The notes under the pieces were generated by a model. The model made no database searches. It was not told the origin of the DNA and saw only the letters and a program-made list of their open reading frames with translations. A stretch of DNA of 26,119 bases from positions 1 through 26,119 of IMG/VR virus record IMGVR_UViG_3300025647_000234. One strand, given 5' to 3'. The translations under genes were made by a program, and so were the position numbers. Origin of the DNA: a virus. Positions within the stretch are counted from its first letter, which is position 1, and each line of letters opens with the position of its first letter. This document shows, piece after piece, positions 210 to 16,619 of this stretch.

Positions 210-2840
210 TTATTGAGTAGCAAATGATCCTAATCTCATAGTTTCTCCAACTTTACGTCCATCCATTTCTACTACAGATGGTCGACTAGTTAAATCACTT
301 AATAATGTTTTAATAGCTGCGAGTTCATTAGCCATAGCACTATTGTCCATACTTACTGTACCTTTAGGAGCACTTATAACGTCGTCTCCAAATAATTTAG
401 TACCTGCAATTACTGTGTCTTTATCGTTTAATGCGATAGCGCCTTCAGGGCCGTATAGAGTACGTTTTCCATAGCCAGGAGATACAATGTCGTCACCTTT
501 AGCAAGGTATCTGTAAGCGAGTGCACCTATAGCAGCAGTAGCAGCACCTGCTGCTATTGGACCTGCTATAGGACCTAACATCATAAAAGCGCTCCAAATT
601 GAAGAAACAGCTTGAGCTAAAAATTTGTAAGCAGCTGCAGCTATCTTACCTATAAATTTACCCATAGCTTTTATACCATCACCAATATAGCCACCTACTT
701 GTTTCATTAATTTTCCAGAACCATCTACAAGATCTTTAAATCTAGATTGTTTACCTACTAATTTACCAGCATCATCTAAAACTTGTCTTTGAGTAAAAAG
801 ATACTTACCTATACTTCCAACCATACCAGGTAATTGCTTTCCTACCATAGGAGCTAATATTACACCCCAAGCACCAAATTTATCATAAATCCATCCTACA
901 ATATCTTTAATAGTTCTAAAGACATCAAGTACTTCTCGTACAGTTTCTCTAAATTCTGCCGCTTTTTCATCTGTTAATTCAAAGGTACCAGTCATTTCAT
1001 TTACTTCTCCTAAACTTTCATTTAACAATTTTCCAATTTCTTCGAAAATGATATTGATATAAGGAAGTATTTTCATTTGGATATCCTGAAGAGTTTTTTT
1101 AAAGCCAAGAAACTGGTCACCTGTTCCCGCTAATGCATCTTGTCGGTCTTGTTCCATTTTAAGAAGTTGTTCTTGAACTGAGACCATTGAAGTCATTGCT
1201 GCTAATCCTTGGCTTTGGAGATCTATCATTTGCTGGTTCTCAGAAACGTTTTCTTTTGCTCCTGCTAACATGTCTGCCATTTCTTCAGAGGACATGCCTA
1301 AAGTTTTAGCTATAGCTTCTTTGCTAATACGATCTAAACTTGCAAATTTTTCTTGAGTAATGCCTTGTTTAGTAATTTCCTCCATTACTCCTGCACGATC
1401 ATCATCTAAAGCTAATGCTCTAGCTTTACTTAAATCAAGATTCATTCCTGTTAAAAGTTGAGCTTCCATTTCAGCTGAAATAGAGTCTTCAAAATTTAAA
1501 AGGCTATCCATAGTTTTTTCAACTTTAGATAAAGAAAGACCTAATTTAGTAGCTTGAGCTACCACTTTAACTAATTCAGTCCCTTGACCTTTAAAAGCAA
1601 CTTGAGTAGCTCTAGATACTTGTGCAACCTCACTTAACAGTTTTTTCTGGCTTACGTTAAGTTTAAGGTTTTTTATTGATTGGGTAGCAGTGTCAACCAT
1701 ATTTTTAACCATTGTACCTGCTTCTTGACCACTTTGTTTTGCGAATTTATAAAAAGTAGCTAAATTATCTGCTGACATTCCAGCAAATACATTTAACTGC
1801 ATAAATGTTTTTTGGGTTTCTTTAGATAGTTTTTCAGCACCATTAATAGAACTGTAGATTTCTTTAGCTGAGTTTACGGCCATATCTCCTGTCATTCCCA
1901 TAGCCATACCAACAGAACGAGCAGAAGCTGCTAATTCTTGACCTTTTGCAGCACTTACACCTAAATTTCGAGATAATTGAGTAGCTTGTTCACTAGTTCT
2001 TTTAATAGATTCAAGACCCATTTCTCCATACTTTACAAACTGTTGGTAAAGCGTAGTTAAAATTCCTATAATACCACCTGCTGCTAGAGCTTTAAGAGCG
2101 CCACCTACGGCAGCTACTGCTACTTTTAATTTACCCATAGCACCTGCCCCTTTATCACCCATATCGGTAACTTTCTTAGCAGCATCACGAGCACTGTCAG
2201 CGGCACCTTGGAAAACTTTAGCTACACCTGAGAGTCCTATTTTATTGAGGAATTTGCTAGCACCTTCAGCACTTTTGCCTAGTATGCCCATAGCGTTATT
2301 TATGTTTTTTTGCCTTCGTTCTTGATCTGCAAGTATTTCTCCTATTTTTCCTAATTGGGCAGCTTGTCTATCTAAATTGATGATTTGTTTAGCTTCTATA
2401 GATAATTGAGATTCTAAACCACGAAGTCGTTCAGAATATTGTTCTTCAGTAATTTTTCCTAATTCTAGTTGTTTAGTTAAGTCTTTTTCTCTAGATTTAA
2501 ATAAAGCAACTTCGTTTTTTAAATCATTAGAAGCGTCTTTTAATAAGCCTTTCTTTACTCTTTCTATTTTATTTCGTTGTTCAGCTATTTTTACTAACTG
2601 TTTTTGAGTAGAAGCCTGATCATCAATATCTAGTTTTAAATCTCTTGCTATTTTAGCATTTTGTTTTGAAAGATCAACTGCTTGCTTATCTAATTCTGTT
2701 TTATCTTTCATGTACTTATACATTAAAGACATTTGAGTGGCTAACTGAGAAGATATGCTTAGCTGATCTCCTAATGCTTCATTTTGTTCTGCTATAAGAT
2801 CAGCTTTTAATTGTTCTAGTTTTTCGTCGCCTTTAGCCAT
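210..2840 (-). CDS. Tail tape measure protein
   Basis: This 876-residue protein sets tail length and fills the tube lumen before DNA ejection. Residues 1-180 are Lys/Glu/Gln-rich coiled coil. A small Gly/Ala-rich hydrophobic patch follows at about 235-265, then a long helical middle with many Ala, Ser and Met residues. A Gly/Ala-rich hydrophobic stretch lies near the C-terminus, followed by a tail containing GPEGAIALNDKDTVIAG, a closing segment I associate with phage tape measures. It lies directly after the tail chaperone-like pair, the standard place for this gene. T4 gp29 has 590 residues, so at about 0.15 nm per residue a tail near 130 nm would be expected; that length is an inference. 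Its own promoter-like motif is 20 nt upstream, after a strong terminator. Confidence 0.88.
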   Translation of the reverse strand: MAKGDEKLEQLKADLIAEQNEALGDQLSISSQLATQMSLMYKYMKDKTELDKQAVDLSKQNAKIARDLKLDIDDQASTQKQLVKIAEQRNKIERVKKGLLKDASNDLKNEVALFKSREKDLTKQLELGKITEEQYSERLRGLESQLSIEAKQIINLDRQAAQLGKIGEILADQERRQKNINNAMGILGKSAEGASKFLNKIGLSGVAKVFQGAADSARDAAKKVTDMGDKGAGAMGKLKVAVAAVGGALKALAAGGIIGILTTLYQQFVKYGEMGLESIKRTSEQATQLSRNLGVSAAKGQELAASARSVGMAMGMTGDMAVNSAKEIYSSINGAEKLSKETQKTFMQLNVFAGMSADNLATFYKFAKQSGQEAGTMVKNMVDTATQSIKNLKLNVSQKKLLSEVAQVSRATQVAFKGQGTELVKVVAQATKLGLSLSKVEKTMDSLLNFEDSISAEMEAQLLTGMNLDLSKARALALDDDRAGVMEEITKQGITQEKFASLDRISKEAIAKTLGMSSEEMADMLAGAKENVSENQQMIDLQSQGLAAMTSMVSVQEQLLKMEQDRQDALAGTGDQFLGFKKTLQDIQMKILPYINIIFEEIGKLLNESLGEVNEMTGTFELTDEKAAEFRETVREVLDVFRTIKDIVGWIYDKFGAWGVILAPMVGKQLPGMVGSIGKYLFTQRQVLDDAGKLVGKQSRFKDLVDGSGKLMKQVGGYIGDGIKAMGKFIGKIAAAAYKFLAQAVSSIWSAFMMLGPIAGPIAAGAATAAIGALAYRYLAKGDDIVSPGYGKRTLYGPEGAIALNDKDTVIAGTKLFGDDVISAPKGTVSMDNSAMANELAAIKTLLSDLTSRPSVVEMDGRKVGETMRLGSFATQ

Positions 2841-2869: not shown

Positions 2870-2896
2870 AAAAGGCATCATTTTTTTGATGCCTTT
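2868..2896 (-). terminator. Intrinsic terminator containing the stop codon of the upstream gene
   Basis: A perfect 10-bp inverted repeat, AAAGGCATCA and TGATGCCTTT, surrounds a six-base loop, and the coding strand continues into TTTTA. The TGA stop of the 89-residue gene lies inside the stem, so the last codons of that gene form half of the hairpin. The tape-measure promoter-like motif follows at once. Confidence 0.8.
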
Positions 2897-3147
2897 GTAA
2901 CATAAGATGGAGGTTTAATCTTACTTTTATCAGGATTACCCCAATCTAAATTAGTAGTAGTAGAAGTTTTTCCAGTTTTAGAAGTAGAATTATTATAAGC
3001 TTTTTCATCAGCTTTATTTCTAGCATCTATAGATTTATTTAAGAAATTAATTGTAGCTCTTCTTAACCAAATTGGAAAATCGTATACTTCTCCCCATGAA
3101 TAACCTCCTTGACCATTATACACTATATCGTGTATCTGTTGAAACAC
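2878..3147 (-). CDS. Small tail-assembly protein, likely the +1-frame extension of the gp26-like protein
   Basis: As an independent gene this would start at GTG (3147-3145) and give 89 residues, 7 nt after the stop of the gp26-like gene. No Shine-Dalgarno sequence precedes that GTG. The frame stays open upstream to the TAG at 3192-3190, and that extension reads FFGLTPEHRLLVFQQIHDIV, which looks like natural coding sequence rather than chance. The core, SWGEVYDFPIWLRRATINFL at 17-36, resembles short proteins encoded just after PF12322 proteins in T4-like phages, as I remember them. The Ser/Thr/Lys-rich C-terminus looks disordered. By analogy with lambda G/GT, it may be made as a fusion with the upstream protein that chaperones the tape measure. 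A separate gp51-like role is the alternative. Confidence 0.65.
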   Translation of the reverse strand: MFQQIHDIVYNGQGGYSWGEVYDFPIWLRRATINFLNKSIDARNKADEKAYNNSTSKTGKTSTTTNLDWGNPDKSKIKPPSYVTKASKK

Positions 3148-3154
3148 TAAAAGT

Positions 3155-3189
3155 CTATGCTCGGGCGTCAGGCCAAAGAAATTGAACTT
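3155..3189 (-). other. Candidate +1 programmed frameshift window
   Basis: Here the end of the gp26-like frame overlaps the open upstream part of the next frame. The only frame change that joins them is +1 (or -2). The sequence CTT TGG C at 3178-3172 allows a tRNA-Leu to slip from CUU to UUU, as at the CUU-U site of the bacterial RF2 gene. A shift there would give a fusion of about 342 residues: 244 residues, then GLTPEHR and onward. Unlike RF2, no purine-rich element lies immediately before the site; GGAGG occurs about 25 nt upstream. Confidence 0.5.
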
Positions 3190-3907
3190 CTAAAGGAATA
3201 GCGACCTCCTCTTCGCCGTTTTCTCCTTCATAAATAAAAGTCATTTTAGTATCTGGAGCAACTTCTTTGTAGTATGATCTTAAAGCTGTAGAATCACGTG
3301 CTAAAAGATAATTATCTACAAAATCACGAATAGTTTGTTTTTCAGAATCACCTTCAACAGAAGTGATCATATATTTAAGTCTTAATGAAGAATCTGCTGA
3401 GAAGTTCTTTTGAACTCGTTTCATACCTTTAATTTCATTAGTCATAGCAGTATCATCGTGACCTGTAAGAATTTTAAAAGTAATCTTAGTTCCTGAATGG
3501 GGAAGAGTAAATGGGAATTCATTTACACCTTTAGTAACTAAGGTTGTATTTAATTCTTTAGCTGGGAGGGCTGATAGATCTACAGTGATTTCTTCTTCAT
3601 TGTATGTAAATGAATAGTCTTTACCATAGCCTAAAACTCGAGCAGCTACTAATAAGGAATTTTTATCACCTGTAACTAAATCATCTAAGTTACATTTAGT
3701 AACAATTACAGATTGTAAAAGTTTATCAACAGCTATACCTTGCTTAATATAACTTTGGTTAGTTAAAATGTCTTCTTCTTTTGCGGTCATGTACTTCATT
3801 TCAACTGTACCGCTTGATAATGGGTGCCCTTCAGGGTATAACCAACCTTTTGATGGGAGTTCTACTGTTTCAGTAGGGAATTTAAATTTTGGTGTTTCGT
3901 TTTCCAT
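3155..3907 (-). CDS. T4 gp26-like baseplate/tail assembly protein (PF12322 type)
   Basis: The 250-residue product begins with the hallmark segment ETVELPSKGWLYPEGHPLSS, followed by GTVEMKYMTAKEEDILTNQ at 33-51. I recognise this pair from proteins labelled 'T4 bacteriophage base plate protein' (PF12322), which lie between tube and tape measure in T4-like phages. The rest is mixed alpha/beta with no membrane segment. The frame ends with FLWPDARA and a TAG. Its position, and the overlapping +1 frame behind it, suggest that in this phage it acts as the tail assembly chaperone, like lambda gpG, rather than as a baseplate hub subunit; that is an inference. A promoter-like motif lies 33 nt upstream. 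Confidence 0.75.
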   Translation of the reverse strand: MENETPKFKFPTETVELPSKGWLYPEGHPLSSGTVEMKYMTAKEEDILTNQSYIKQGIAVDKLLQSVIVTKCNLDDLVTGDKNSLLVAARVLGYGKDYSFTYNEEEITVDLSALPAKELNTTLVTKGVNEFPFTLPHSGTKITFKILTGHDDTAMTNEIKGMKRVQKNFSADSSLRLKYMITSVEGDSEKQTIRDFVDNYLLARDSTALRSYYKEVAPDTKMTFIYEGENGEEEVAIPLEVQFLWPDARA

Positions 3908-3978: not shown

Positions 3979-4284
3979 TTAATATTGACGACCTTGTGTG
4001 CGATAAAGATCGAAATCTTTATACACTTTAGATTCTAGTTTATCGACTCGAGAGTCGGTATGTCGAACAACATTGTTCTCGACATTTTTAATTTCATTAT
4101 ATAAATCATTTCGGTAGCGTTCTACCTCATAATGTAGTTCTCTAACGTTAGCTTCTAGCTCTCGTTGAGTAGATTCCGCTTGTTTGCGGGTAATGTTTAA
4201 TGTCTTTAAGACCAAAAACGTACCTGCAACGATCAAAAGATCAATCACAGCAAGCACACCTATAGTAAAAGATAGTGTTTCCAT
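3979..4284 (-). CDS. Small membrane-anchored coiled-coil protein, function unknown
   Basis: The 101-residue product has one strongly hydrophobic segment at about 5-28 (LSFTIGVLAVIDLLIVAGTF and on). A highly charged Glu/Arg/Gln/Lys coiled coil follows at about 33-92. The topology suggests an inner-membrane anchor with a cytoplasmic rod, similar in shape to phage spanin or moron products, but there is no lipobox and no recognisable family. It sits between the tube and the gp26-like gene, where no T4 core gene is expected. It is separated by a terminator on its upstream side and bracketed by inverted repeats, so it looks like an inserted cassette. A weak version of the promoter motif (GTATTTACT) lies 40 nt upstream. 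Confidence 0.75.
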   Translation of the reverse strand: METLSFTIGVLAVIDLLIVAGTFLVLKTLNITRKQAESTQRELEANVRELHYEVERYRNDLYNEIKNVENNVVRHTDSRVDKLESKVYKDFDLYRTQGRQY

Positions 4285-4390: not shown

Positions 4391-4879
4391 TTAGAAGTTT
4401 AGTACACAATAATCCATACCGAGGGTTACAGTGATATTTTGGGCAGCAGTATCATTATCCCAGTTATATTCACCAAATTCAGCGGCTTTAATAAATGCAC
4501 CTTTAATAATCCATTCAGAAACGATATCACCTACAGGACCTAATACATCGATAGTAACGTCTTTCTTATAGAAATCACTATAACCATCTCTACCAGTTAC
4601 TGATTCGTGGTGTAAACGAACCCACTCCATTACGGCTTGTGCGCCTGAAGGAGTAATTGGATCAAATAAAGTCATTGTTAAATCATTCCACTTTAATTTA
4701 CCTTTAATTTTGCGGTAAACGTTAATATGGTTTAACATAATTTCTTCTTGCGAAAAACCTACAGATGAGATACCTTTAATTGTGTATGAAGGAATTCCAC
4801 CAACGTACATAATAAATCTATTCTGTACTTTTGGTTCAAACGCCGTGAAGAAAATTTCGTTAGAGTCTAATACTGCCAT
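4391..4879 (-). CDS. Tail tube protein (T4 gp19 type)
   Basis: At 162 residues it is nearly the length of T4 gp19 (163). This subunit stacks in hexameric rings to make the inner tube of a contractile tail. The N-terminus FEPKVQNRFIMYVGGIPSYT, the internal GKLKWNDLTMTLFDPITPSG and the C-terminal TVTLGMDYCVLNF follow the pattern of the gp19 family (PF06841), where a central beta strand is followed by a 'W...V/H' helix. It follows the sheath gene, as in T4, and has its own promoter-like motif 26 nt upstream. Strong independent transcription suits the many copies needed per virion. Confidence 0.9.
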   Translation of the reverse strand: MAVLDSNEIFFTAFEPKVQNRFIMYVGGIPSYTIKGISSVGFSQEEIMLNHINVYRKIKGKLKWNDLTMTLFDPITPSGAQAVMEWVRLHHESVTGRDGYSDFYKKDVTIDVLGPVGDIVSEWIIKGAFIKAAEFGEYNWDNDTAAQNITVTLGMDYCVLNF

Positions 4880-4928: not shown

Positions 4929-7049
4929 TTATGCTGGGAAAGTAGCACCAGTTGGTAAGATGTTGAAGTCGAGGTAAATAAATTCAGCTGTCTTAGTTGG
5001 TTGGATGAAGATCTGGCCAATTAACTGGTTTCTATCAATTACATCAGCTGTGTTGTTAGTATCATCCATGATTACTCTGAACGCATACAAGCCTTGTTGT
5101 TGTTGAACTTGTTCTAAGTAAGGATTTACTTGAGCTAAGAATCTATTTCTAGTAGCAATTGTGTTTTGTTCAAATACTAAATTATTAGCTACTTGAGAAA
5201 TAAATGATTTAAGTTCAATTAACAATCTACGAACGTTTACACGGTCGAGAGCTGTAGCTCTAGTTTGAAGTGTTTTCTGTCCGTATACTACAACACCAGT
5301 TCCTGGGAATGTAGCAATTGGGTTAACTTTTCCTGTGTATAATGTGTCTCTGTTAGCTTGAGTTAATGTCTTTTCAGCTCTAGTTACGTTACTTAAACCA
5401 CCTCTGTTAATACCTGCTGGGGCAAACCAAGCATAAGAAACTGAATCGTTTTGAGCATATACTCCAGGAATCATTGCTGAAGCTGGAACCCAAACGTTTT
5501 CACCTGTATCTGGGTCATTGGTTTGTAACCAAGGCCAGTAAGTAGCAGCGTATGAAGTATTTCTAGTAGCAGCAGCTGTTGTAGCATTTGCAACAGTAGA
5601 TCCATAAAGGTTTTGATCTAATATTAAAATATGATCACCTCTATTTTGTGCGTTAGAAATTAATGAAGTAACTTGAGATACCATTCCAGCACTAGTTACA
5701 TTAGCTGTGTCAAATAAACCTGGGGCTGCGATCATATTGTACTGGTATGCATCTTGGTTTGCAAGAAGAGTAATCATAGCAGCATAGTCTGAACCTGTTA
5801 AGCCTTGAGAGTTAGTTACTCCACTGATAATATTATTGTAATATTTGTTTCCAGCATTAGCTTCCATATTACCAATAGCGTTTCCAAATGAGCCACTAGC
5901 TACAACTGGAAGAGAAGCTGTGTACGCTGATTTAGGAGCTCCTGAGTTATCAAAGTAATTTGGAGTGGTAGCGTTTACTGATTTTACTCTTACAAATCTA
6001 GAAGCATTAGGATATGATCCAGAGATTTCAATTTGAGAATTATCAGCACTTAAAGCTAATTTATAGTTACCAATTACTTTAGATACGAAGTTAGGTACTG
6101 TTGGGTCAAGTGATAAGTTAGTCCAAGTTTCTAATACATTAGTTTCATTAGCATTATCATCACCTCTTCTAATTACTAAATCAAAAGTACCAGATGAAGT
6201 ATTACTAGTAACAATTTGCCATCTAATGTTATCTGATGAACCGCTTGCTAAAGCACCGTTTGAGTCTAAAGAGCTAGTGCTATTCATGATAGTACCCTCA
6301 CTAAGGGTTTCAAGAACAAGAGCTACGGCACTATCACCGTTTACACCACCACCTAAAGTAGCTTGATCTGCGAAGCTTGAAGCTGATCCAGTTGAGAAAA
6401 TTACTCCGTTATAAGTAGAACCAGATGCTGAAGATGAAATTGCTAAACCTACACCTGATTCTGAAACAAAAGTAAGTGTACCACCAAGAGCAGTAGCTTG
6501 GCCCATTGAAGCTGTTAAGTTAGCAAGTGATTGACCAACAGATGAACCTGTAGAGAAGAAATAAAGTAAACCATCAGTATCATCTGCAGGAACTGGGGTC
6601 GCTGAAGCAACAAAGCGGTAGAGACCAAAACTACCAGTTACGCGAACTTCGTCTCCATCACTAAATGCAGCTGCTAAAGCAAAGCTAGCAGTAGCAAATT
6701 TACCAGCTGTTACACTTTGGTTATTTGTAATATCACTTGAAGTAGCAGGTGTATAAGTTGAACCACCTCCAGCTACTACTCTAGATACTAATAATGAAGT
6801 ACCTCCATTATTAAAATAATTGTAAGCAGCTATTGAAGTAAAGTAAGTGTATTGTTCACCACCACTAATGAAAGTTGTACCAAATCTATTTGTGTAGTCA
6901 TTGTAAGAGCTAACAAGTGTTGGGATTTCAACTGGTCCTTTTACTGTAGGGCCTATGATAGCGGCACCCGCCTGTATAGGTAAGCTACTAACTTGAGACT
7001 GGTCGTTTTCTCTAGCTAATACTCCTGGGGAGATTAATGTTTCTGCCAT
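4929..7049 (-). CDS. Tail sheath protein (T4 gp18 type)
   Basis: This 706-residue protein forms the contractile outer cylinder of the tail. The N-terminus has SPGVLARENDQS at 7-18 and GAAIIGPTVKGPVEIPTLVS at 28-47, the usual sheath opening. The C-terminal core has LDRVNVRRLLIELKSFI near 602-618 and ends with YLDFNILPTG, as in phage sheath families (PF04984 type). The middle, about 100-400, is a Ser/Thr/Gly-rich variable region that would form the exposed outer domains. T4 gp18 has 659 residues, so the length fits. It is followed by the tube gene and preceded by a small coiled-coil gene, with its own promoter-like motif 23 nt upstream. Confidence 0.92.
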   Translation of the reverse strand: MAETLISPGVLARENDQSQVSSLPIQAGAAIIGPTVKGPVEIPTLVSSYNDYTNRFGTTFISGGEQYTYFTSIAAYNYFNNGGTSLLVSRVVAGGGSTYTPATSSDITNNQSVTAGKFATASFALAAAFSDGDEVRVTGSFGLYRFVASATPVPADDTDGLLYFFSTGSSVGQSLANLTASMGQATALGGTLTFVSESGVGLAISSSASGSTYNGVIFSTGSASSFADQATLGGGVNGDSAVALVLETLSEGTIMNSTSSLDSNGALASGSSDNIRWQIVTSNTSSGTFDLVIRRGDDNANETNVLETWTNLSLDPTVPNFVSKVIGNYKLALSADNSQIEISGSYPNASRFVRVKSVNATTPNYFDNSGAPKSAYTASLPVVASGSFGNAIGNMEANAGNKYYNNIISGVTNSQGLTGSDYAAMITLLANQDAYQYNMIAAPGLFDTANVTSAGMVSQVTSLISNAQNRGDHILILDQNLYGSTVANATTAAATRNTSYAATYWPWLQTNDPDTGENVWVPASAMIPGVYAQNDSVSYAWFAPAGINRGGLSNVTRAEKTLTQANRDTLYTGKVNPIATFPGTGVVVYGQKTLQTRATALDRVNVRRLLIELKSFISQVANNLVFEQNTIATRNRFLAQVNPYLEQVQQQQGLYAFRVIMDDTNNTADVIDRNQLIGQIFIQPTKTAEFIYLDFNILPTGATFPA

Positions 7050-7358: not shown

Positions 7359-8558
7359 TTAATAAATATTAAGGGTTTTTTGTAAAGCACTTATTACCAT
7401 ATTAGGAGTAATATTTTTTGTGCATTCGAATTGACGTAAAGTTCCTTTATGGTCAGGACACCATTCCCAATCTCCAGGATTTAACCATTCACGGTTAAAA
7501 CATCCAGTACATACATTAGATCTTTTAGGAAATACTCTTTCACAAGTAAATTCTGTATGTGGTTCGCTAAATCCTGAGATTAGTATAACTGGGGTTCCAG
7601 TAGCCCAAGCTAACCAACTTAAACCACTACCAACACCAATAAATGCATCAGCATGTTTAATTTGATTTATTCTTTCTTCTAATGAAAAATCTCCAGTTTT
7701 ATTTATAATTCCTTTTAAAGTTCCTCCTAATTTAGAATCATGCCATTTATCTCCCCAAGGTTCTTGAGTAATCATTACTACTTTGTAGCCTTGTTTATTT
7801 AGATAATCAATAACAGTTTGCCATCCTCTAGGATAATTCCAATACTTAGCATGAGCCGAAGCGTGGGGGGCTATTACTACATACTTTTCTTTTAATGGAG
7901 AAGGTTCTTGTGGGAGTTTTATTTTGGGTTTTATTTCAGTATACTCTAATCCTAGAATATCAGTTGAAGTTTGTTGTAAATTTAAAGCTTTAAAATCACG
8001 GGGTACCTTACTATAATTAACAACCGCATCACTTTCATAATGCCAACCTACACCATACATAGCATACAAATCAAATACTTCAACTCCAGGAGTTATAAAT
8101 TCTAGTTCTGGGTATTCATCGATAAACCAATCATTATGGAATGTAGAAGTTATAACATGGCAATTCCATTTTTTTCTAAATTCATCAACATAGGGAAACC
8201 AAGCTAATGTATCACCAATAGCACTTGAATCCATATGGATGTAAACTCTTTTACCTTCAGGATTATACTTATGTTCAAAAACTAATTCATTATTTGAGGC
8301 ATCATATACTTGAACTAACCAATTAATAAAATATTTAATGTTAGTACGAGTCCACATGTTAGTACTAATAGTAGTATCGTGTAATATAGTTTGGGTGTCT
8401 TGGTCAGTAAATACAACTTTATATTGTTTTTCTTCAGGACCAGTAACTTCTATAAAAGCCCCATCTACAAAATTACAAGAAAATTTATTTTGTAACTTTT
8501 TAAATGGAATTTTTAAAATTTTAGTACTATTATATTCGTCAATTAAAACTTCTTTCAT
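7359..8558 (-). CDS. BAHT-like O-glycosyltransferase (autotransporter heptosyltransferase / GT9-related)
   Basis: The 399-residue product looks like the autotransporter 'strand-loop-strand' O-heptosyltransferases (TibC/Aah type). Residues 28-100 form the N-terminal beta-rich domain (NFVDGAFIEVTG, then YFINWLVQVYD). KRVYIHMDSSAIGDTLAWFP at 103-122 is the GT-B entry with the family's SAIGDTLAW signature. VVIAPHASAHAKYWNYPRGW at 227-246 and IGVGSGLSWLAWATGTPVIL at 307-326 form the donor-binding half. Cysteines C350, C353, C367 and C379 give the CxxC...C...C pattern expected for the structural metal site described in TibC. Known members attach heptose to serines of repetitive adhesins. Here the likely targets are the Ser/Thr-rich fibres encoded just upstream. 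The start overlaps the previous stop by ATGA. The sugar donor cannot be read from sequence; a capsule or LPS target is the alternative. Confidence 0.75.
   Translation of the reverse strand: MKEVLIDEYNSTKILKIPFKKLQNKFSCNFVDGAFIEVTGPEEKQYKVVFTDQDTQTILHDTTISTNMWTRTNIKYFINWLVQVYDASNNELVFEHKYNPEGKRVYIHMDSSAIGDTLAWFPYVDEFRKKWNCHVITSTFHNDWFIDEYPELEFITPGVEVFDLYAMYGVGWHYESDAVVNYSKVPRDFKALNLQQTSTDILGLEYTEIKPKIKLPQEPSPLKEKYVVIAPHASAHAKYWNYPRGWQTVIDYLNKQGYKVVMITQEPWGDKWHDSKLGGTLKGIINKTGDFSLEERINQIKHADAFIGVGSGLSWLAWATGTPVILISGFSEPHTEFTCERVFPKRSNVCTGCFNREWLNPGDWEWCPDHKGTLRQFECTKNITPNMVISALQKTLNIY
7362..7370 (-). promoter_or_regulatory. Putative late promoter motif inside the end of the heptosyltransferase-like gene
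   Basis: The coding strand reads AATATTTAT, 14 nt before the 82-codon gene. The bases also encode the last residues (NIY) of the upstream glycosyltransferase. It is the shortest motif-to-start spacing of the set. Confidence 0.45.
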
Positions 8559-9505
8559 ACAAACTCATTATATATTTTTACTAATTCAGTAGTACGATTA
8601 TACCAATCTAATTCTTTAGCAGTATTTGCACATTTTTCTCTATAAGAATCAAAATTTAATAATATATCTTTTAATCCTTGATCCATTTTAAATACATCTC
8701 GAGGAGCTCTCCAAGCACCATGAAAATCAGTTTCATGCTCCCAATCAGCAATAATAGGTAAACCAGCAGCTGCGGCTTCAATCATAGTTAAATTAGGATG
8801 ACCTGCTTCTAACATTGTTGGATGGATAAAAATATCATGTTTATGATATAAATCTAATAATTCAGTGTTAGGTAAATCAAAAATAATACTTAATTTAGGA
8901 TAATTTAAAGCCCAAATGTGATTATTAAAAAAATTTTGATTATTGTATGGGCCCGCTATTGTAATTTCTAAATCATTTAGCATAGCTAATCCTATACCAT
9001 AAGCAAAACCTTTTCTATCAAATCCAGCTTGACCTCCTAAACCATTATTAGCAACCATTAAAAGTTTAGGTTCAGTTGGTATTTCTTTTTCAATAGGGTA
9101 AAATTCTTGATTATTAACCCCGTGAGCAAAGTATCTTACTTTAGGATGATTATCAAACCAATCTACTAAAAATTTAGCAGGTACTAATGATACTAAAGAT
9201 CCTTCAATAGCTTTTAAATTTTCTTTATATACATTTGAGTCTTTGCCATAATGAAATACGTGGTGATCATGTAATTGAAATATGTAAGGAATATTTCGTT
9301 CAGCTAACATTAAAGCTAAATTAGCAACATGGCAATGAACTATATCATATTGATAAGGTTCAACCCAAGTAGCAAATTTAACATCAGCTACATGTTCTTG
9401 TTTTTCAAGATTACACTTAAATTCCCAAATAATTTTTTCTATAGCACCCCAACCTTTAGGAGGAATAGTTAATCCGCAAGCGGGGTCGATATGGGCTACT
9501 CTCAT
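8555..9505 (-). CDS. Glycosyltransferase family 4-like protein
   Basis: The 316-residue product is a compact GT-B enzyme. The N-terminal half has MRVAHIDPACGLTIPPKGWG, the Gly-rich acceptor-side loop of GT4 enzymes. YDIVHCHVANLALMLAERNI at 53-72 and the LHDHH at 78-82 follow. The C-terminal half has AGFDRKGFAYGIGLA at about 160-174 (the RKG position) and EAGHPNLTMIEAAAAGLPII at 233-252, the nucleotide-sugar binding E...E motif with two extra residues between the glutamates. At 316 residues it is shorter than most GT4 enzymes (350-400). It is joined to the genes on both sides by ATGA overlaps, so translation is coupled. No signal peptide is present, so it acts in the cytoplasm. Donor and acceptor are unknown. 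Confidence 0.8.
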   Translation of the reverse strand: MRVAHIDPACGLTIPPKGWGAIEKIIWEFKCNLEKQEHVADVKFATWVEPYQYDIVHCHVANLALMLAERNIPYIFQLHDHHVFHYGKDSNVYKENLKAIEGSLVSLVPAKFLVDWFDNHPKVRYFAHGVNNQEFYPIEKEIPTEPKLLMVANNGLGGQAGFDRKGFAYGIGLAMLNDLEITIAGPYNNQNFFNNHIWALNYPKLSIIFDLPNTELLDLYHKHDIFIHPTMLEAGHPNLTMIEAAAAGLPIIADWEHETDFHGAWRAPRDVFKMDQGLKDILLNFDSYREKCANTAKELDWYNRTTELVKIYNEFV

Positions 9506-12204
9506 TCTTTAGCAAATATTAATGGACTATTTTCGTCTGTTGATTTATCGGTTTGTTCAATAATACTAAATCCTGGGAGGTGTTTAGTATAGATTTTTTC
9601 TGCTGTTCCTACTTTTAATTCAGCTACATTACATACCCACATATCAAAAGCATCCCATGGTGTTGTACTAATTTTATCTTGAATATAAGATAGTTTATCA
9701 TTATTAATTAAATATGATTGGGCTGGAATAAATGGTGTAACGTTTGTATAAACATCTTCAATTTTAGGTCCATTTAAATTACGGTTTTGCCATGGATTTC
9801 CAAATCCAATAATATCTTGGTTAGTTTCTTTTGATAATCTACTAAAACGAATTAATGAATCATATAACTCTTGATAGTCTGAGTCAACAATTACATCTCC
9901 TTCAAATATTAAAATATAATCATAGTTATAATTATCTTCATCATTTATAGCTGTAGTATGGGCAATATAACAACCATAGTGGCCAGGAGCAAGTTTATAG
10001 TAACCAGGTTTATCTTGAACGTCATCTGGGCGATTACAAGTATCTTTAGGAGGTAATTCAGTCCATATTTTATTTATACGTTGTTCATATTTAATACCTG
10101 TTTTTTCACAAAAATCTTTAATATTGTTTACTGAGCGTATTTCTTTTGGATTGGTTTCCGGCTCAGTAACTAAGTGCATTAATTTGATTTTTTTAGAGGT
10201 TACTAAATTTTTAATTTTTATAAACCCATTTTGAGGTAAGATATCATTATAGTAATTATAATCAATGTTTATTTGTTTACTTTCTATAAATTTATTAGTA
10301 TTTAAATCAAAAATTTCTAATTTAATTTCATACAAATCATTTTTATTAAATGATTCACAATTTATGGGTAAATAATAAAAAGTTTTGTCTATAATTTCTA
10401 AATCTTGGGTATTAACTAAATTTGAATTTTTAAATACTGAGAGTTTGAAAAGTCTACTATCTTTACTATTTAATACTTGGATATAAGGACAAAATATCTC
10501 TGGGTGTTCTTCTACTGGGAGTGCTGTAAAATATTCTACTCTTGAAAAATCTTTATGAGTAATATCTCTATTTAACTTTTCTCTAAAAATTTCAGTATTT
10601 TCATAATGAACTTTGGGGAGATTTTTAACTCCATTATACATTAAGTTTTCTAAACTATTAGTCTCTGATCCCCATTTATGCTGTAAATCATCATACTGTT
10701 TAGAATCTGTTATTAAAGGGAAATTTTTAGTATAAAATTCAGGTTTAGCTGCAGCAAAGAATGTAGTTAAACATGGGCCTTCTTGTTCTTGTCTAAATTC
10801 ATAAAAAGCATCTTGTGTATCTAAAATAGATGAAATTTCATCTAAATATGTTTTATGATTTAAAATATAGTCAAAATTTAAAAAGAATACTTTTTTAATA
10901 CCTAACTTTTTTGCTAAAATACATCCATTGTAGTAATTAGTATAAACTGTAGGACCATGATATATGTCATTATTTTCACCATTTAAATTAACGTATACAT
11001 CAAAATCTGGGGAGTAATAGAATGATTTGTTAAAGAATGTATGTTTAGTTAAAATATTATTTTTATCGTAAATACAATAATCTACTAATGATTGTAATTC
11101 TTCTGGGATAGGAGCATGGGATACAAGGATAATTTTTCTTCCAGTTTGTTTAGCTTTTACAATACATTCTTTAGTTGTATTAACAATGCTATCAGTAATA
11201 GGATAAGTAGAAATAATAATAGCCTCATTTTCAGGATTATAAATTTGAACTCCTAGTTTTCCAGCTATTAACTCACAATTTTTTTCAAAATTATCAAATT
11301 CTAAATAATTTACTCCTTCAAAATTATCCCAATAATTTAAGTATACTGGGAGGTTATATATTAAAATTGGGATTTGATATGAAACTGCTTCACGAATTAC
11401 TAGTGGCATTGTTTCTTTATCATTATTTGTTCCGCGAGAAGTAAACAAAAACAAATCCATTGCTTGATAGAATTTATCTACATCAGTGCGTTCGTTCCAC
11501 CAAGTTAAGTTTGAAGGTTGATTATTAGCTAAATCTTCCCAGTACCATTTAAAATTATCAGCTCTATTACCTAAACTATGGAATTCAACATCAGGAAATT
11601 GTTGAGCATATTCAAAAAATTCTTTTTGATTTTTTCTAGGAGTGTATAACCCAACGTGTAAAACATGTTTTTTGTTTGGATCTAATCCTAATTCTTTTAA
11701 TGCTTCTTCTCTATTAGGACGTTCAACGTATTCAATTGGGTAGTATACTACAGTTTTAGGAATGTCTATATCTTTATATTGTTGAATTTGCCACTCAGAT
11801 ACAAACATAAATTTGTCTGGGAAGAATGATTTTTCTTGGGTATTATAAGATGAATCATGGGATGTTTCTACAATTCTATATTTACGTTTAGTAGAGTATA
11901 TTTGTTCTGCTACAGATCTGTCCATAAAAAATTCAGGAATTTCTTCTAAATGAACAATATCAGGTTGAACTTGATTGATTATATCAATAAGTTCCATTTT
12001 ATTATCTCCTAAAGTAAAAAATCTACTAGAATCTATTAAATCTACAATTTTATTTCTTGTAACTACTAAAACTCCCCCAGTACAATCTACCCATTCAACT
12101 AAATAAATTTCATATGTATCTTTTAATAGCTCAATTTTTTTACATAGATATTGAGGAAGGCCCCCAGTAGATAAATGGGGAGCTATATACAATAATTTCT
12201 TCAT
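9502..12204 (-). CDS. Multidomain glycosyltransferase: GT4-like, central GT-like, GT25-like C-terminus
   Basis: The 900-residue product has at least three parts. Residues 1-320 are a GT4-like GT-B domain: MKKLLYIAPHLSTGGLPQYL at the start, HVGLYTPRKNQKEFFEYA at 183-200 and ETMPLVIREAVSYQIPIL at 264-281, with the E-x7-E motif. Residues 328-530 open with IIISTYPITDSI and IILVSHAPIPEELQSLVDYC, a segment I recall from phage and bacterial glycosyltransferases, and look like a separate catalytic domain. Residues 565-660 are beta-rich. Residues 675-900 resemble GT25: LAPGHYGCYIAHTTAI at 738-753 and YILIFEGDVIVDSD at 763-776, where EGD stands for the usual EDD. GT25 includes LPS and collagen galactosyltransferases. 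The gene starts 34 nt after the 50-codon gene, without its own promoter-like motif, and overlaps the next gene. Confidence 0.78.
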   Translation of the reverse strand: MKKLLYIAPHLSTGGLPQYLCKKIELLKDTYEIYLVEWVDCTGGVLVVTRNKIVDLIDSSRFFTLGDNKMELIDIINQVQPDIVHLEEIPEFFMDRSVAEQIYSTKRKYRIVETSHDSSYNTQEKSFFPDKFMFVSEWQIQQYKDIDIPKTVVYYPIEYVERPNREEALKELGLDPNKKHVLHVGLYTPRKNQKEFFEYAQQFPDVEFHSLGNRADNFKWYWEDLANNQPSNLTWWNERTDVDKFYQAMDLFLFTSRGTNNDKETMPLVIREAVSYQIPILIYNLPVYLNYWDNFEGVNYLEFDNFEKNCELIAGKLGVQIYNPENEAIIISTYPITDSIVNTTKECIVKAKQTGRKIILVSHAPIPEELQSLVDYCIYDKNNILTKHTFFNKSFYYSPDFDVYVNLNGENNDIYHGPTVYTNYYNGCILAKKLGIKKVFFLNFDYILNHKTYLDEISSILDTQDAFYEFRQEQEGPCLTTFFAAAKPEFYTKNFPLITDSKQYDDLQHKWGSETNSLENLMYNGVKNLPKVHYENTEIFREKLNRDITHKDFSRVEYFTALPVEEHPEIFCPYIQVLNSKDSRLFKLSVFKNSNLVNTQDLEIIDKTFYYLPINCESFNKNDLYEIKLEIFDLNTNKFIESKQINIDYNYYNDILPQNGFIKIKNLVTSKKIKLMHLVTEPETNPKEIRSVNNIKDFCEKTGIKYEQRINKIWTELPPKDTCNRPDDVQDKPGYYKLAPGHYGCYIAHTTAINDEDNYNYDYILIFEGDVIVDSDYQELYDSLIRFSRLSKETNQDIIGFGNPWQNRNLNGPKIEDVYTNVTPFIPAQSYLINNDKLSYIQDKISTTPWDAFDMWVCNVAELKVGTAEKIYTKHLPGFSIIEQTDKSTDENSPLIFAKE

Positions 12205-12238: not shown

Positions 12239-12391
12239 TTATTTTGATTTGCCAAGTTGTTTTAATCCTTCTTCTTTAGATAAAAGTGTTCCCTTAGATA
12301 ATATTTGTTGAAATTCTTCTAAAGTAACATAATGAATATTACCTCCACTAGCTTTTATTTTATTTTCTAATTCAGGGGTTAAAGGTATCAT
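12239..12391 (-). CDS. 50-residue protein translationally coupled to the shorter fibre, function unknown
   Basis: The ATG at 12391-12389 overlaps the TGA of the 1274-codon fibre gene (ATGA), and the TAA is at 12241-12239. The product begins MIPLTPELENKIKASGGNIH, continues YVTLEEFQQILSKGTLLSKE and ends in a Lys-rich tail. It looks like a small helical cytoplasmic protein. Tight coupling to a fibre gene suggests a fibre assembly chaperone or a partner of the following glycosyltransferase; this is an inference from position only. Support for it being real comes from the ATGA junction, the natural-looking composition and the fact that it fills the gap between the fibre and the glycosyltransferases. 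Confidence 0.65.
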   Translation of the reverse strand: MIPLTPELENKIKASGGNIHYVTLEEFQQILSKGTLLSKEEGLKQLGKSK

Positions 12392-15300
12392 GCTGTATAC
12401 ATTGGAATTACATAGTCTGTTGCTCCTACTCTAACGGCTAACCAGCTATCTGGGGTACCTAATACATTATCATCAGCTGTTGCTCCAATAATATCACTAA
12501 CTCCATTTCTACCACCAGGAGTATAAGCACTACCATAAGATCCACTATGAATTAACTTTAAACCTGTATAAAATTGGTTACCTACTTCTAAATAGTTTGT
12601 ACTATTAACATATAAAGCATTACGAGAAGTTCCTCCTGTATCTTGGAATCTTAAAGAAGCTGCGGGTACGTTAGATCCTGTAATAGATATTGAACCTGAA
12701 ACTGTTACATGGTGAAGTGGGGCTGCTGTGTAATTAACTGCTAAGAAAGTGCTACCAGTTAATACAACATTACCATTAGTAGTATCATAATAAAAATTAG
12801 AATAAACCGTAGGATCTCCAGATTTACCATAAGTTGTAATACCACCTACAGTAGAACCTGCCCAGTTTACGTTTACAGTTCTATCAGTACTTAATGATCC
12901 TCCTCCATTTAAACCCGTACCTGCTACTATAGATACGTAAGTACCTGCTGTACCTATATTACCTGAAATACCAGATACACCTGAAGTGCCAGAACTACCT
13001 GATGATCCAGCTTTACCTGCTGTACCTGAACTACCTGAAGAACCACTAGGGCCAGAATTACCAGCGTTACCACTAGATCCATTTGAACCTGTAGTTCCTG
13101 AATTGCCTGATTTACCTGAGTTACCATTGTTACCGCTTGAACCATTAGAGCCTGTAGTACCTGAGTTGCCTGAGTTACCTGAGTTACCATTGTTACCGCT
13201 TGAACCATTAGAGCCTGTAGTACCTGAGTTGCCTGAGTTACCTGAGTTACCGGCATTACCATTTGAGCCGTTTGAACCTGTTGTGCCTGAATTACCAGAT
13301 TTTCCTGAGTTACCTGTAGCACCTGCTGAGCCAGAAGAACCTGTAGTACCTGAAACAGCTGAAAGGCCACTTACACCTGATGTTCCTGATGAACCTGAAG
13401 TTCCTGATGAACCTGATGATCCAGACTTGCCTGAGTTGCCGGAATTACCAGAATTACCATTTGAGCCGTTTGAACCAGTAGTACCTGAATTACCTGAGTT
13501 ACCTGAGTTGCCACTTGAGCCATTGGAACCTGTTGTACCTGAGTTACCTGAGTTACCTGAGTTACCGCTTGAACCATTTGAACCAGTAGTACCTGAATTA
13601 CCTGAGTTACCTGAGTTACCGGAATTACCACTTGAACCATTAGAACCTGTTGTACCAGATTGACCTGATTTTCCTGAGTTACCTGTAGCACCTGCTGAGC
13701 CAGAAGAACCTGTAGTACCTGAAACCGCTGAAAGACCACTTACACCTGAAGTACCACTTGATCCACTTGTACCAGATGAACCTGATGATCCAGACTTACC
13801 TGAGTTACCTGAGTTACCACTAGATCCATTTGAGCCAGTAGTACCTGAATTGCCTGAGTTGCCTGAGTTGCCACTAGATCCATTTGAGCCAGTAGTACCT
13901 GATAATCCTCCTACGCCTGAAGTACCTGATGAACCTGAACTACCTGAAGAACCTGAGCTCTGGCTTAAACCTGATGTACCTGTATTACCTGATGAACCTG
14001 AACTACCTGAAGAACCTGAGCTCTGGCTTAAACCTGATGTACCTGTATTACCTGCTGAACCTGAAGAACCAGATGTTCCTGATGAACGGCTTAAACCTGC
14101 TTTACCTGAGTTACCAGAGGAGCCAGTAGAACCTGCTGAACCAGACGAACCTGATGAGCCAGAAGTACCAGATAAACCACCTACACCAGAAGTACCTGAT
14201 GAGCCCGAAGAACCAGATGAACCTGCTGAACGACTTAAACCGGAGTTACCTGTATTACCTGATGAACCTGAACTACCTGAAGAACCTGAGCTCTGGCTTA
14301 AACCTGATGTACCTGTATTACCTGATGAACCCGAAGAACCTGATGAGCCTGAAGAGCGACTTATACCAGAAGTACCAGTATTACCTGATGAACCAGATGA
14401 TCCTGAAGAACCTGAAGAGCCTGAAGTGCTTGATAGTCCACCAACACCTGAAGTACCTGAAGAACCTGAACTACCTGATGAACCTGAAGAACCTGCTTTA
14501 CCTGAGTTACCAGCATTGCCACTAGATCCATTTGAACCAGTTGTACCCGAATTACCAGACTCACCTGAATTACCACTTGAACCATTTGAGCCTGTAGTAC
14601 CTGATAATCCTCCTACGCCTGAAGTACCTGAAGAACCTGAAGAACCAGATGTTCCTGATGAACGGCTTAAACCTGAGTTACCTGAGTTACCAGAAGAACC
14701 AGTAGAACCTGCTGAACCAGACGAACCTGATAAGCCAGAAGTACCAGATAAACCACCTACACCAGAAGTACCTGATGAGCCCGAAGAACCAGATGAACCT
14801 GCTGAACGACTTAAACCTGAGTTACCTGAGTTACCTGATGAGCCTGTTGAACCTGCTGAGCCTGATGAGCCTGAGGTACCTGATAGCCCACCTACACCAG
14901 AAGTACCTGATGAGCCTGAGGAGCCTGAACTACCTGCTGAACGGCTTAAACCTGAGTTACCTGAGTTACCAGAAGAACCAGTAGAACCTGCTGAACCAGA
15001 CGAACCTGATGAGCCAGAAGTACCAGATAAACCACCTACACCAGAAGTACCTGATGATCCACTTGAACCTGATGAACCAGAAGAGCGGCTTAAACCTGAG
15101 TTACCTGAGTTACCTGATGAGCCTGTTGAACCTGCTGAGCCTGATGAGCCTGAAGTACTTGATAAACCATTTACACCAGAAGTACCTGATGATCCACTTG
15201 AACCTGATGAACCAGAAGAGCGGCTTAAACCTGATGTACCTGTATTACCTGAAGAACCTGCTGAACCAGATGAGCCTGAGGAGCCTGAAGTGCTTGATAG

Positions 15301-16212
15301 CCCACCTACACCTGAAGTACCTGAAGAACCACTTGAACCTGATGAACCAGAAGAGCGACTTAAACCTGATGTACCTGTATTACCTGAAGAACCTGAGGAA
15401 CCTGAAGAACCAGATGAGCCTGAGGTACTAGATAATCCTCCTACACCTGAAGTACCTGAAGAACCACTTGAACCTGATGAACCAGAAGAGCGACTTAAAC
15501 CTGATGTACCTGTATTACCTGAAGAACCTGAGGAACCTGAAGAACCAGATGAGCCTGAAGTGCTTGATAAGCCACCTACACCAGAAGTACCTGATGAGCC
15601 TGAGGAGCCTGAACTACCTGATGAACGACTTAAACCGGAGTTACCTGAGTTACCAGAAGAACCAGTAGAACCGGCTGAGCCTGAAGAGCCAGATGAGCCT
15701 GAAGTGCCTGATAAGCCACCTACACCAGAAGTACCTGATGAACCCGAAGAACCAGATGAGCCTGCAGAGCGGCTTAAACCGGAGTTACCTGAGTTGCCTG
15801 ATGAACCTGTTGAGCCTGAAGAACCCGATGAACCTGTTGAACCCGATGAACCAGAAGAACCTGAAGAGCCACTTGATGCTCCTGAACTACCTGAAGTACC
15901 TGTTATACCAGAACTACCTGTTTTACCTGTAGAGCCAGATGAACCTGAAGTACCTGATGATCTACCAGATGAGCCTGAGGTGCCTGCACTACCTGATGTG
16001 GAACCTCCTGAGCTACCACTACTGCTTCCACCTCCACCACCACTTACTCCTCCTATAACGTATCTAACTTGCTTTGAATTAGGATTAATTACTAAAGCAT
16101 AGTCTTCAACAGAACCAGTGGGAACTGATAGTAAAAATAGGTCATTTATAACCTTATTATCTTGACCTGAGTCTTGTTTTTTCTGGACAGTATATCTTTT
16201 ATTTTCACCCAT
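12388..16212 (-). CDS. Collagen-like Gly-X-Y repeat fibre protein with a C-terminal head
   Basis: The 1274-residue product has three regions. Residues 1-53 are non-repetitive (MGENKRYTVQKKQDSGQDNK and on) and may attach the fibre to the virion. Residues 54-1086 are Gly-X-Y triplets built from Ser, Thr, Asn and Ala with almost no Pro, organised in 45- or 48-residue superrepeats marked by GLSR and GVGGLS. Residues 1087-1274 begin GTAGTYVSIVAGTGLNGGGS and end WLAVRVGATDYVIPMYTA, a closing pattern common in phage fibre tips. No S74 chaperone domain is present, unlike the larger fibre. It is preceded by a terminator and a promoter-like motif at 27 nt, and is followed by a coupled small gene and three glycosyltransferases. 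The likely role is a host-contacting or decorating fibre; the location on the virion is unknown. Confidence 0.85.
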   Translation of the reverse strand: MGENKRYTVQKKQDSGQDNKVINDLFLLSVPTGSVEDYALVINPNSKQVRYVIGGVSGGGGGSSSGSSGGSTSGSAGTSGSSGRSSGTSGSSGSTGKTGSSGITGTSGSSGASSGSSGSSGSSGSTGSSGSSGSTGSSGNSGNSGLSRSAGSSGSSGSSGTSGVGGLSGTSGSSGSSGSAGSTGSSGNSGNSGLSRSSGSSGSSGSSGTSGVGGLSSTSGSSGSSGSSGSSGNTGTSGLSRSSGSSGSSGSSGTSGVGGLSSTSGSSGSSGSSGSSGNTGTSGLSRSSGSSGSSGSSGTSGVGGLSSTSGSSGSSGSAGSSGNTGTSGLSRSSGSSGSSGSSGTSGVNGLSSTSGSSGSAGSTGSSGNSGNSGLSRSSGSSGSSGSSGTSGVGGLSGTSGSSGSSGSAGSTGSSGNSGNSGLSRSAGSSGSSGSSGTSGVGGLSGTSGSSGSAGSTGSSGNSGNSGLSRSAGSSGSSGSSGTSGVGGLSGTSGLSGSSGSAGSTGSSGNSGNSGLSRSSGTSGSSGSSGTSGVGGLSGTTGSNGSSGNSGESGNSGTTGSNGSSGNAGNSGKAGSSGSSGSSGSSGTSGVGGLSSTSGSSGSSGSSGSSGNTGTSGISRSSGSSGSSGSSGNTGTSGLSQSSGSSGSSGSSGNTGNSGLSRSAGSSGSSGSSGTSGVGGLSGTSGSSGSSGSAGSTGSSGNSGKAGLSRSSGTSGSSGSAGNTGTSGLSQSSGSSGSSGSSGNTGTSGLSQSSGSSGSSGSSGTSGVGGLSGTTGSNGSSGNSGNSGNSGTTGSNGSSGNSGNSGKSGSSGSSGTSGSSGTSGVSGLSAVSGTTGSSGSAGATGNSGKSGQSGTTGSNGSSGNSGNSGNSGNSGTTGSNGSSGNSGNSGNSGTTGSNGSSGNSGNSGNSGTTGSNGSNGNSGNSGNSGKSGSSGSSGTSGSSGTSGVSGLSAVSGTTGSSGSAGATGNSGKSGNSGTTGSNGSNGNAGNSGNSGNSGTTGSNGSSGNNGNSGNSGNSGTTGSNGSSGNNGNSGKSGNSGTTGSNGSSGNAGNSGPSGSSGSSGTAGKAGSSGSSGTSGVSGISGNIGTAGTYVSIVAGTGLNGGGSLSTDRTVNVNWAGSTVGGITTYGKSGDPTVYSNFYYDTTNGNVVLTGSTFLAVNYTAAPLHHVTVSGSISITGSNVPAASLRFQDTGGTSRNALYVNSTNYLEVGNQFYTGLKLIHSGSYGSAYTPGGRNGVSDIIGATADDNVLGTPDSWLAVRVGATDYVIPMYTA
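12955..16052 (-). repeat. Gly-X-Y coding repeats of the shorter fibre
   Basis: The basic unit is 9 bp (one triplet), in which a Gly codon is followed by two codons mostly for Ser, Thr or Asn. Larger units are visible. The GGTTTA marker (G-L of GLSR) recurs at 14668, 14812, 14947, 15091, 15226, 15361, 15496, 15631 and 15775, giving steps of 135 or 144 bp only. Two copies of a 63-bp unit lie in tandem at 13121-13246 with no mismatch that I found. Asn-rich triplets dominate toward the C-terminal side (low coordinates), Ser-rich ones toward the N-terminal side. Confidence 0.9.
13121..13246. repeat. 63-bp tandem duplication inside the fibre repeats
   Basis: The segment starting at 13121 (TTACCATTGTTACCGCTTGA on the plus strand) is repeated identically from 13184. 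It encodes 21 residues, seven Gly-X-Y triplets. Lack of divergence suggests a recent duplication or gene conversion. Confidence 0.8.
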
Positions 16213-16310: not shown

Positions 16311-16619
16311 TTATTTACTATTTTTTAATTCATCAAGCTGTGTTTTAAGTTCTTTAACTGCTTCTATTAATACTGCAGTTAATTTTTCATAATCAACAGT
16401 TTTAACTATTTGAGGGTTGTTTTTATACTCTCCTACTTTAAGTTCTTTTTCTCTTACAATGTGAGGGATAATTTCTTCAACTTCTTGGGCTATTACACCT
16501 AAGTCATGTTGTCCTTTTCTACCACCCGCATTCCAATCATATTCAACACCTCTAAGTTTAGTAACTTTATCTAAAGCGTTTTCAATAGTTGTGATATTGT
16601 CTTTTAATCTTCTATCTGA
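16311..16619 (-). other. S74 chaperone region with predicted autocleavage site
   Basis: Ser2746 (codon 16619-16617) and Asp2747 open the SDRRLKD motif of the S74 endosialidase-type chaperone. The Lys in the motif and the downstream GVIAQEVEE are all present, so the domain looks active. Cleavage would remove the last 102 residues after trimerisation. Confidence 0.85.

Follow-up and report, generated by a model that had tools for sequence, protein, structure and literature searches.

A very likely +1 programmed frameshift in a probable G/GT-type tail chaperone pair related to T4 gp26 and gp51

Gene order and the overlap of two reading frames

The stretch of viral DNA analyzed here (the window; 26,119 nucleotides) carries on its minus strand a series of tail genes in the order sheath, tube, small ORF, G, T and tape measure, where G denotes a gp26-like gene and T the open frame behind it. 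The relevant features are as follows:

4929-7049, minus strand: tail sheath, upstream neighbor (PHROG_23, E 2.3e-65; Pfam Phage_sheath_1)
4391-4879, minus strand: tail tube protein, gp19-like, upstream neighbor (PHROG_4542 tail tube, E 5.5e-23)
3979-4284, minus strand: small ORF between tube and G
3155-3907, minus strand: G, gp26-like putative tail assembly chaperone, 250 aa (PHROG_150, E 2.8e-11; AlphaFold2 pLDDT 89.5)
3173-3181, minus strand: putative +1 slip site TTT CTT TGG (zero frame; family consensus TTT YTT T)
2878-3189, minus strand: T, open frame +1 to G
3148-3189, minus strand: part of the T frame that precedes any ordinary start codon, KFNFFGLTPEHRLL, with the conserved form FFGLTPE(Y/H)R
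210-2840, minus strand: tape measure gene directly downstream of T (BLASTP)

The G/T pair is placed between the tail tube gene (4391-4879) and the tape measure gene (210-2840), whose product has a homolog in the annotated tape measure protein of Flavobacterium phage immuto (BLASTP, E 2e-27), and the order of tube, G, T and tape measure is the lambda G/GT order.

Where the two frames overlap, the zero-frame codons of G are CAA (3184-3182), TTT (3181-3179), CTT (3178-3176) and TGG (3175-3173), and the stop codon TAG (3157-3155) ends 18 nt beyond the TGG; the G frame reads ...GTT CAA TTT CTT TGG CCT GAC GCC CGA GCA TAG. In the T frame, a stop at 3192-3190 is followed by an open stretch from 3189 to 2878, which reads ...TTC TTT GGC CTG ACG CCC GAG CAT AGA CTT TTA GTG. 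The GTG, at 3147-3145, lies 7 nt past the G stop; it is not a conserved start, and no Shine-Dalgarno-like sequence was seen just upstream of it on reading the window sequence. After a shift, a ribosome would enter T at GGC (3174-3172) and reach its stop at 2880-2878, adding 98 residues beyond the slip. Inside T, at 3107-3085 (minus strand), an AAGGAGG is followed within a few bases by an ATG that is out of the T frame; the motif arises from conserved Gly-Gly codons.

Elsewhere on the minus strand of the window, three glycosyltransferase genes (GT9, group 1, and a group 1 + GT25 fusion) lie among the tail genes at 7359-12204. A 2847-residue collagen-like protein with GSSGTSG repeats and a C-terminal Peptidase_S74 chaperone domain (E 4.9e-19), probably a very long tail fiber, is encoded at 16311-24854 and adjoins a second gene for a GSSG-repeat protein (1274 residues, 12388-16212). 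It is conceivable that the glycosyltransferases decorate these GSSG-repeat proteins. The long opposite-strand ORFs (PELPELP-type) at the repeat genes appear to be mirror artefacts of the repeats.

Conservation, selection and the slip site

The first relatives found matched T already from residue 1 to 3 of its open frame. In an initial survey of 85 loci, all 85 had T in the +1 frame together with the peptide FFGL(T/S)xE(Y/H)R; however, these loci had partly been selected with a pattern containing FFGLTPE, and the survey was therefore repeated without the slip region, using as query only the residues from the GTG on. The 80 loci recovered in this way comprised 68 that were non-redundant, and T was in +1, behind a UUU-YUU-U site, in 68/68. 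The first slip-site codon was TTT in every one of them, the second TTT in 63 and CTT in 5, and the third TGG in 66, with TAT and TAC once each, while the end of the G stop fell 14-20 nt beyond the site. Since the +1 arrangement and the slip site are kept in 85/85 and 68/68 loci, chance is excluded. In 32 of the 68 non-redundant loci the T frame contained no ATG, GTG or TTG from its last stop up to the conserved core (and in 31/57 none before the conserved GGY), and ordinary initiation is therefore unable to make the whole of T in those 32. As the surveyed loci are related to one another, their counts do not represent independent events, and better independent evidence comes from the distant +1 relatives described below. 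In a sub-group including loci L334, L343 and L368, FGLT in T is followed by a short insertion (FGLTSDxxxQxR), without any change to the slip site.

Substitutions were examined over the seven codons after the slip site (GLTPEYR) in 57 non-redundant loci. Read in the T frame, these codons have a pS of 0.339 and a pN of 0.030 (pN/pS about 0.09), whereas the same bases read in the zero (G) frame have a pS of 0.019 and a pN of 0.123. Substitutions are thus silent when read in T but not when read in G, which shows that the T frame is under selection from the slip site onward; protein-level selection reaches upstream of the GTG, and the stretch before it is genuine protein.

These results bear on a first-pass annotation that had proposed a +1 frameshift between the two genes. 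Its frames and coordinates, including CTT TGG C at 3178-3172, held exactly, as did its suggestion that the sequence before the GTG is genuine protein, given the conservation and selection in the T frame; the +1 shift itself held on comparative evidence only. The outcome that would have refuted it, i.e., homologs that start at the GTG behind a clear ribosome site and show nothing conserved upstream, was looked for and not observed. The predicted peptide QFLGLTPEHR is better read as FFGLTPE(Y/H)R. The expectation that CTT-T would be invariant in homologs failed (CTT 5/68, TTT 63/68), and the conserved requirement is therefore UUU-YUU-U rather than a copy of the release factor 2 (prfB) site as such. 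The prfB site, CUU UGA, shares the CUU-U slip codon with the window, but in the window the A-site codon is the sense codon UGG, no Shine-Dalgarno sequence was seen close upstream, and in most relatives UUU takes the place of CUU; the RF2-type combination of CUU with a stop codon and a Shine-Dalgarno sequence just upstream is lacking.

CTT-T is not the only possible place for the slip: in the window, slipping at CUU-U or at UUU-Y (the preceding UUU re-pairing to UUC) might each account for the shift. The first Phe codon of the site is TTT in 57/57 loci, although TTC makes up 22% of Phe codons elsewhere in G (naive p 7e-7, with relatedness ignored), and the sites of distant relatives such as LR756508 (AAC TTT CTA) and GXN1 (GAA TTC TTT CGT) contain UUU-C and lack a usable CUU-U. 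We therefore favor, as an inference, a slip of tRNA-Phe from UUU to UUY. No conserved downstream stimulatory RNA structure was predicted from 29 sequences, and no consistent Shine-Dalgarno sequence was seen upstream of the slip site.

Distant relatives and the T4 proteins gp26 and gp51

The family of G in the window is established by its match to PHROG_150, which includes both T4 gp26 (6.7e-71) and T4 gp51 (2.6e-84). Both T4 proteins are also members of PF12322, for which the window G gave no Pfam match at E 0.1, although the frameshifting relatives LR756508, SP-15, RM378, GXN1 and XacN1 do match it; membership of the window G in the gp26/gp51 family therefore rests on PHROG_150 and on intermediates. 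Accordingly, the first-pass proposal of a G/GT role for a PF12322-type gene is supported comparatively, with the reservation that the window G itself lacks the match. Profile searches found no family for the window T. Pfam searches of the T domains of the window group (alignment A6) gave only weak matches, to Phage_TAC_13 in 4/28 members (best E 0.0095) and to DUF6760 in 6/28 (best 0.017), and nothing useful was obtained for the distant T domains. Elsewhere, gp26-like genes may have DUF6760 as their T partner.

The AlphaFold2 model of G is confident (pLDDT 89.5) and matches models of the gp26 family. Its best matches among solved structures, both weak (Z <8), were YqbN (3klu; Z 5.9, rmsd 5.9, 91 aligned), which we take to be related to the phage tail chaperones of XkdN type, and the tail assembly chaperone of HK97 (2ob9; Z 4.6, rmsd 4.5, 83 aligned), and these are no more than suggestive of a chaperone fold. 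A plain Foldseek search of the G model against the PDB gave nothing below E 1, a sequence search of G against solved structures gave no match, and no chaperone was among the solved-structure matches of a gp51 model built from IMG/VR loci.

The +1 layout recurs in the isolate Flavobacterium phage immuto, which shares the slip site, and in the distant relatives Microcystis phage Mel-JY01, Rhodothermus RM378, Bacillus SP-15, Listeria LIS04, Streptococcus GXN1 and the huge phage LR756508. Runs at the site in distant +1 relatives are short or broken (TTCTTTC, TTTC). By contrast with the +1 site of the first-pass annotation, a -1 layout at U UUU UUC or U UUU UUU was found in XacN1, CM1, Atu_ph07 and LR756511, in the cyanophages DSL-LC02, S-PM2 and P-HM2, and in Vibrio PG216 (Schizotequatrovirus) and Aeromonas phiAS5 (Straboviridae); for the T4-like cyanophages and the Vibrio and Aeromonas T4-likes the site is U UUU UUC. 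T4-like marine loci from IMG/VR had T in -1 in 79/80, and in 60/60 non-redundant T4-like environmental loci from the same source the site was TTTTTTC, followed one or two codons later by the stop of G. The one locus scored +1 among those 80 (L110-L189) could reflect an indel or a scoring error. In S-PM2 or another T4-like cyanophage, the -1 G-T junction peptide would be expected to span ...QSFFRISMFYNNLENYYR, as inferred from sequence alone. Isolate records matching the cyanophage T number 533, many of them listing T as a separate 'gp51', and in Pseudomonas phage Cygsa01 T is a separate ORF with a TAATG stop-start. On this evidence, which again is inference from sequence, the gp26/gp51 family very likely uses both +1 and -1 shifts.

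T4 gp51 (249 aa) consists of a G-type domain and a C-terminal extension that falls in PHROG_634 (1.2e-23), the group that also contains the -1-frame T of DSL-LC02 and phiAS5 (1.3e-25 and 1.9e-15, respectively), and the cyanophage T aligned with the gp51 C-terminus in hhalign at 96%. In profile comparisons, T of the window group matched that of SP-15/LIS04/GXN1/LR756511 at 93% and the cyanophage T at 59%, but set directly against the T4 gp51 C-terminus it gave no significant match (0.9%), and this link is therefore made via intermediates. T4 gp26 ends in ...KEFFELL, at the same place as the G of the frameshifting phages, and a T frame behind it is absent. Given this end, the missing T frame and the in-frame T on gp51, the two T4 proteins look like G and G-T, and we regard their origin as such a pair, via gene duplication and in-frame fusion, as a strong inference for which there are no bench data. 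They resemble the window pair in family, in the point at which gp26 stops and in the continuation of gp51 into the T domain, and differ from it in being two duplicated, divergently oriented genes without a frameshift. Both are listed as hub assembly chaperones, gp51 being needed for assembly and absent from the finished particle, although some genetic work put gp26 in the T4 hub. The G-T frameshift has been described as widely conserved 'except T4' (review by Atkins et al.). A Vibrio phage record notes similarity to the C-terminal 40 residues of gp51, and part of this resemblance had therefore already been seen by annotators; no prior report of a frameshift in the gp26/gp51 family was found in the literature searched, which did not cover most subscription journals.

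A bolder reading is likely as a whole: that gp26/gp51 of T4-type phages are G and G-T, descended from an ancestral frameshift pair in which the direction of the shift has switched, being +1 in the window, the Firmicutes phages and RM378 and -1 in cyanophages, Vibrio and Aeromonas T4-likes and jumbo phages; that T4 dispensed with the shift through gene duplication and in-frame fusion of T; and that some phages carry T as a separate stop-start gene.

Alternative explanations and the proposed chaperone pair

It might be argued that T is a gene of its own, with ribosomes that have passed the G stop reinitiating at the GTG or at some other weak start, as the GTG is only 7 nt past that stop in the window and the related phage Cygsa01 does have a separate T ORF. 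We consider this very unlikely, since about half of the relatives have no ATG, GTG or TTG before the conserved T core, protein-level selection extends upstream to the slip site, and the CTG of GGC CTG is CTA in several relatives. Slippage of RNA polymerase on the run of T, leaving some mRNAs one U short, is suggested by the seven consecutive T in most relatives. However, the run is interrupted in the window and in 5/68 unbiased relatives (TTTCTTT), which is evidence against transcriptional slippage in the window, and the runs are short or broken in the distant +1 relatives, so that this explanation too has very little to recommend it. A broken gene or an assembly error, which a single-base difference in frame would resemble, is all but ruled out by the same arrangement in many independent contigs and isolate genomes.

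A further possibility is that the +1 frameshift is real but that its fusion product is not a chaperone, e.g., that it is a structural part of the hub, in keeping with the family annotation 'baseplate hub' and with the genetic placement of gp26 in the T4 hub. This seems unlikely, because gp51 is required for assembly yet absent from the particle, both T4 proteins are listed as chaperones and the two-product layout lies directly before the tape measure gene; the structural hints (YqbN, HK97 chaperone) point the same way, albeit weakly.

We therefore conclude that a genuine +1 programmed frameshift is very likely and that G and T very likely form a G/GT tail chaperone pair, although no peptide or reporter data exist and the role of the pair as a tail chaperone remains a strong inference from comparative evidence without bench data. 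In the proposed mechanism, the gene at 3155-3907 would yield G, a tail assembly chaperone of 250 residues belonging to the T4 gp26 family, while in a minority of ribosomes the P-site tRNA on UUU or CUU before UGG would slip by +1, re-pairing from UUU to UUC or from CUU to UUU, and reading would then continue via FFGLTPEHR into T to give a G-T fusion of about 342 residues. By analogy with lambda, G and G-T would form a coat on the tape measure protein, whose gene follows theirs, with T bringing in subunits of the tail tube. The sequences themselves show the frames, the conservation of the slip site, the selection on T, the neighboring genes and the homology to gp26/gp51, whereas the occurrence of the shift, its efficiency, the tRNA that slips, the protein contacts, and a low-level fusion that is absent from the virion are inferred.

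Lambda G/GT is alike in having a short G, a minority G-T made by frameshifting near the end of G, and a position before the tape measure gene, and neither G nor G-T is found in the lambda virion (review by Atkins et al.). It differs in that its shift is -1, rather than +1 at UUU-YUU-U, and in that the window G is a 250-residue gp26-family protein; no sequence similarity of the window G or T to lambda G or T was shown. A +1 shift in a G/T pair has also been described as very likely in a myovirus, halovirus HSTV-2 (review by Atkins et al.), which, unlike the window, has an archaeal host. The G/GT system itself is known, but its +1 form in the gp26 family is unrecognized in the literature searched.

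If this interpretation is true, the standing of T4 as an exception to G/GT frameshifting would be explained by the same G/G-T pair being made from two genes. An unannotated frameshift is probable in hundreds of T4-like genomes, where gp51 is often listed as a separate truncated ORF. The family would then offer a natural series in which +1 shifting, -1 shifting, stop-start coupling and duplication solve the same stoichiometry problem.
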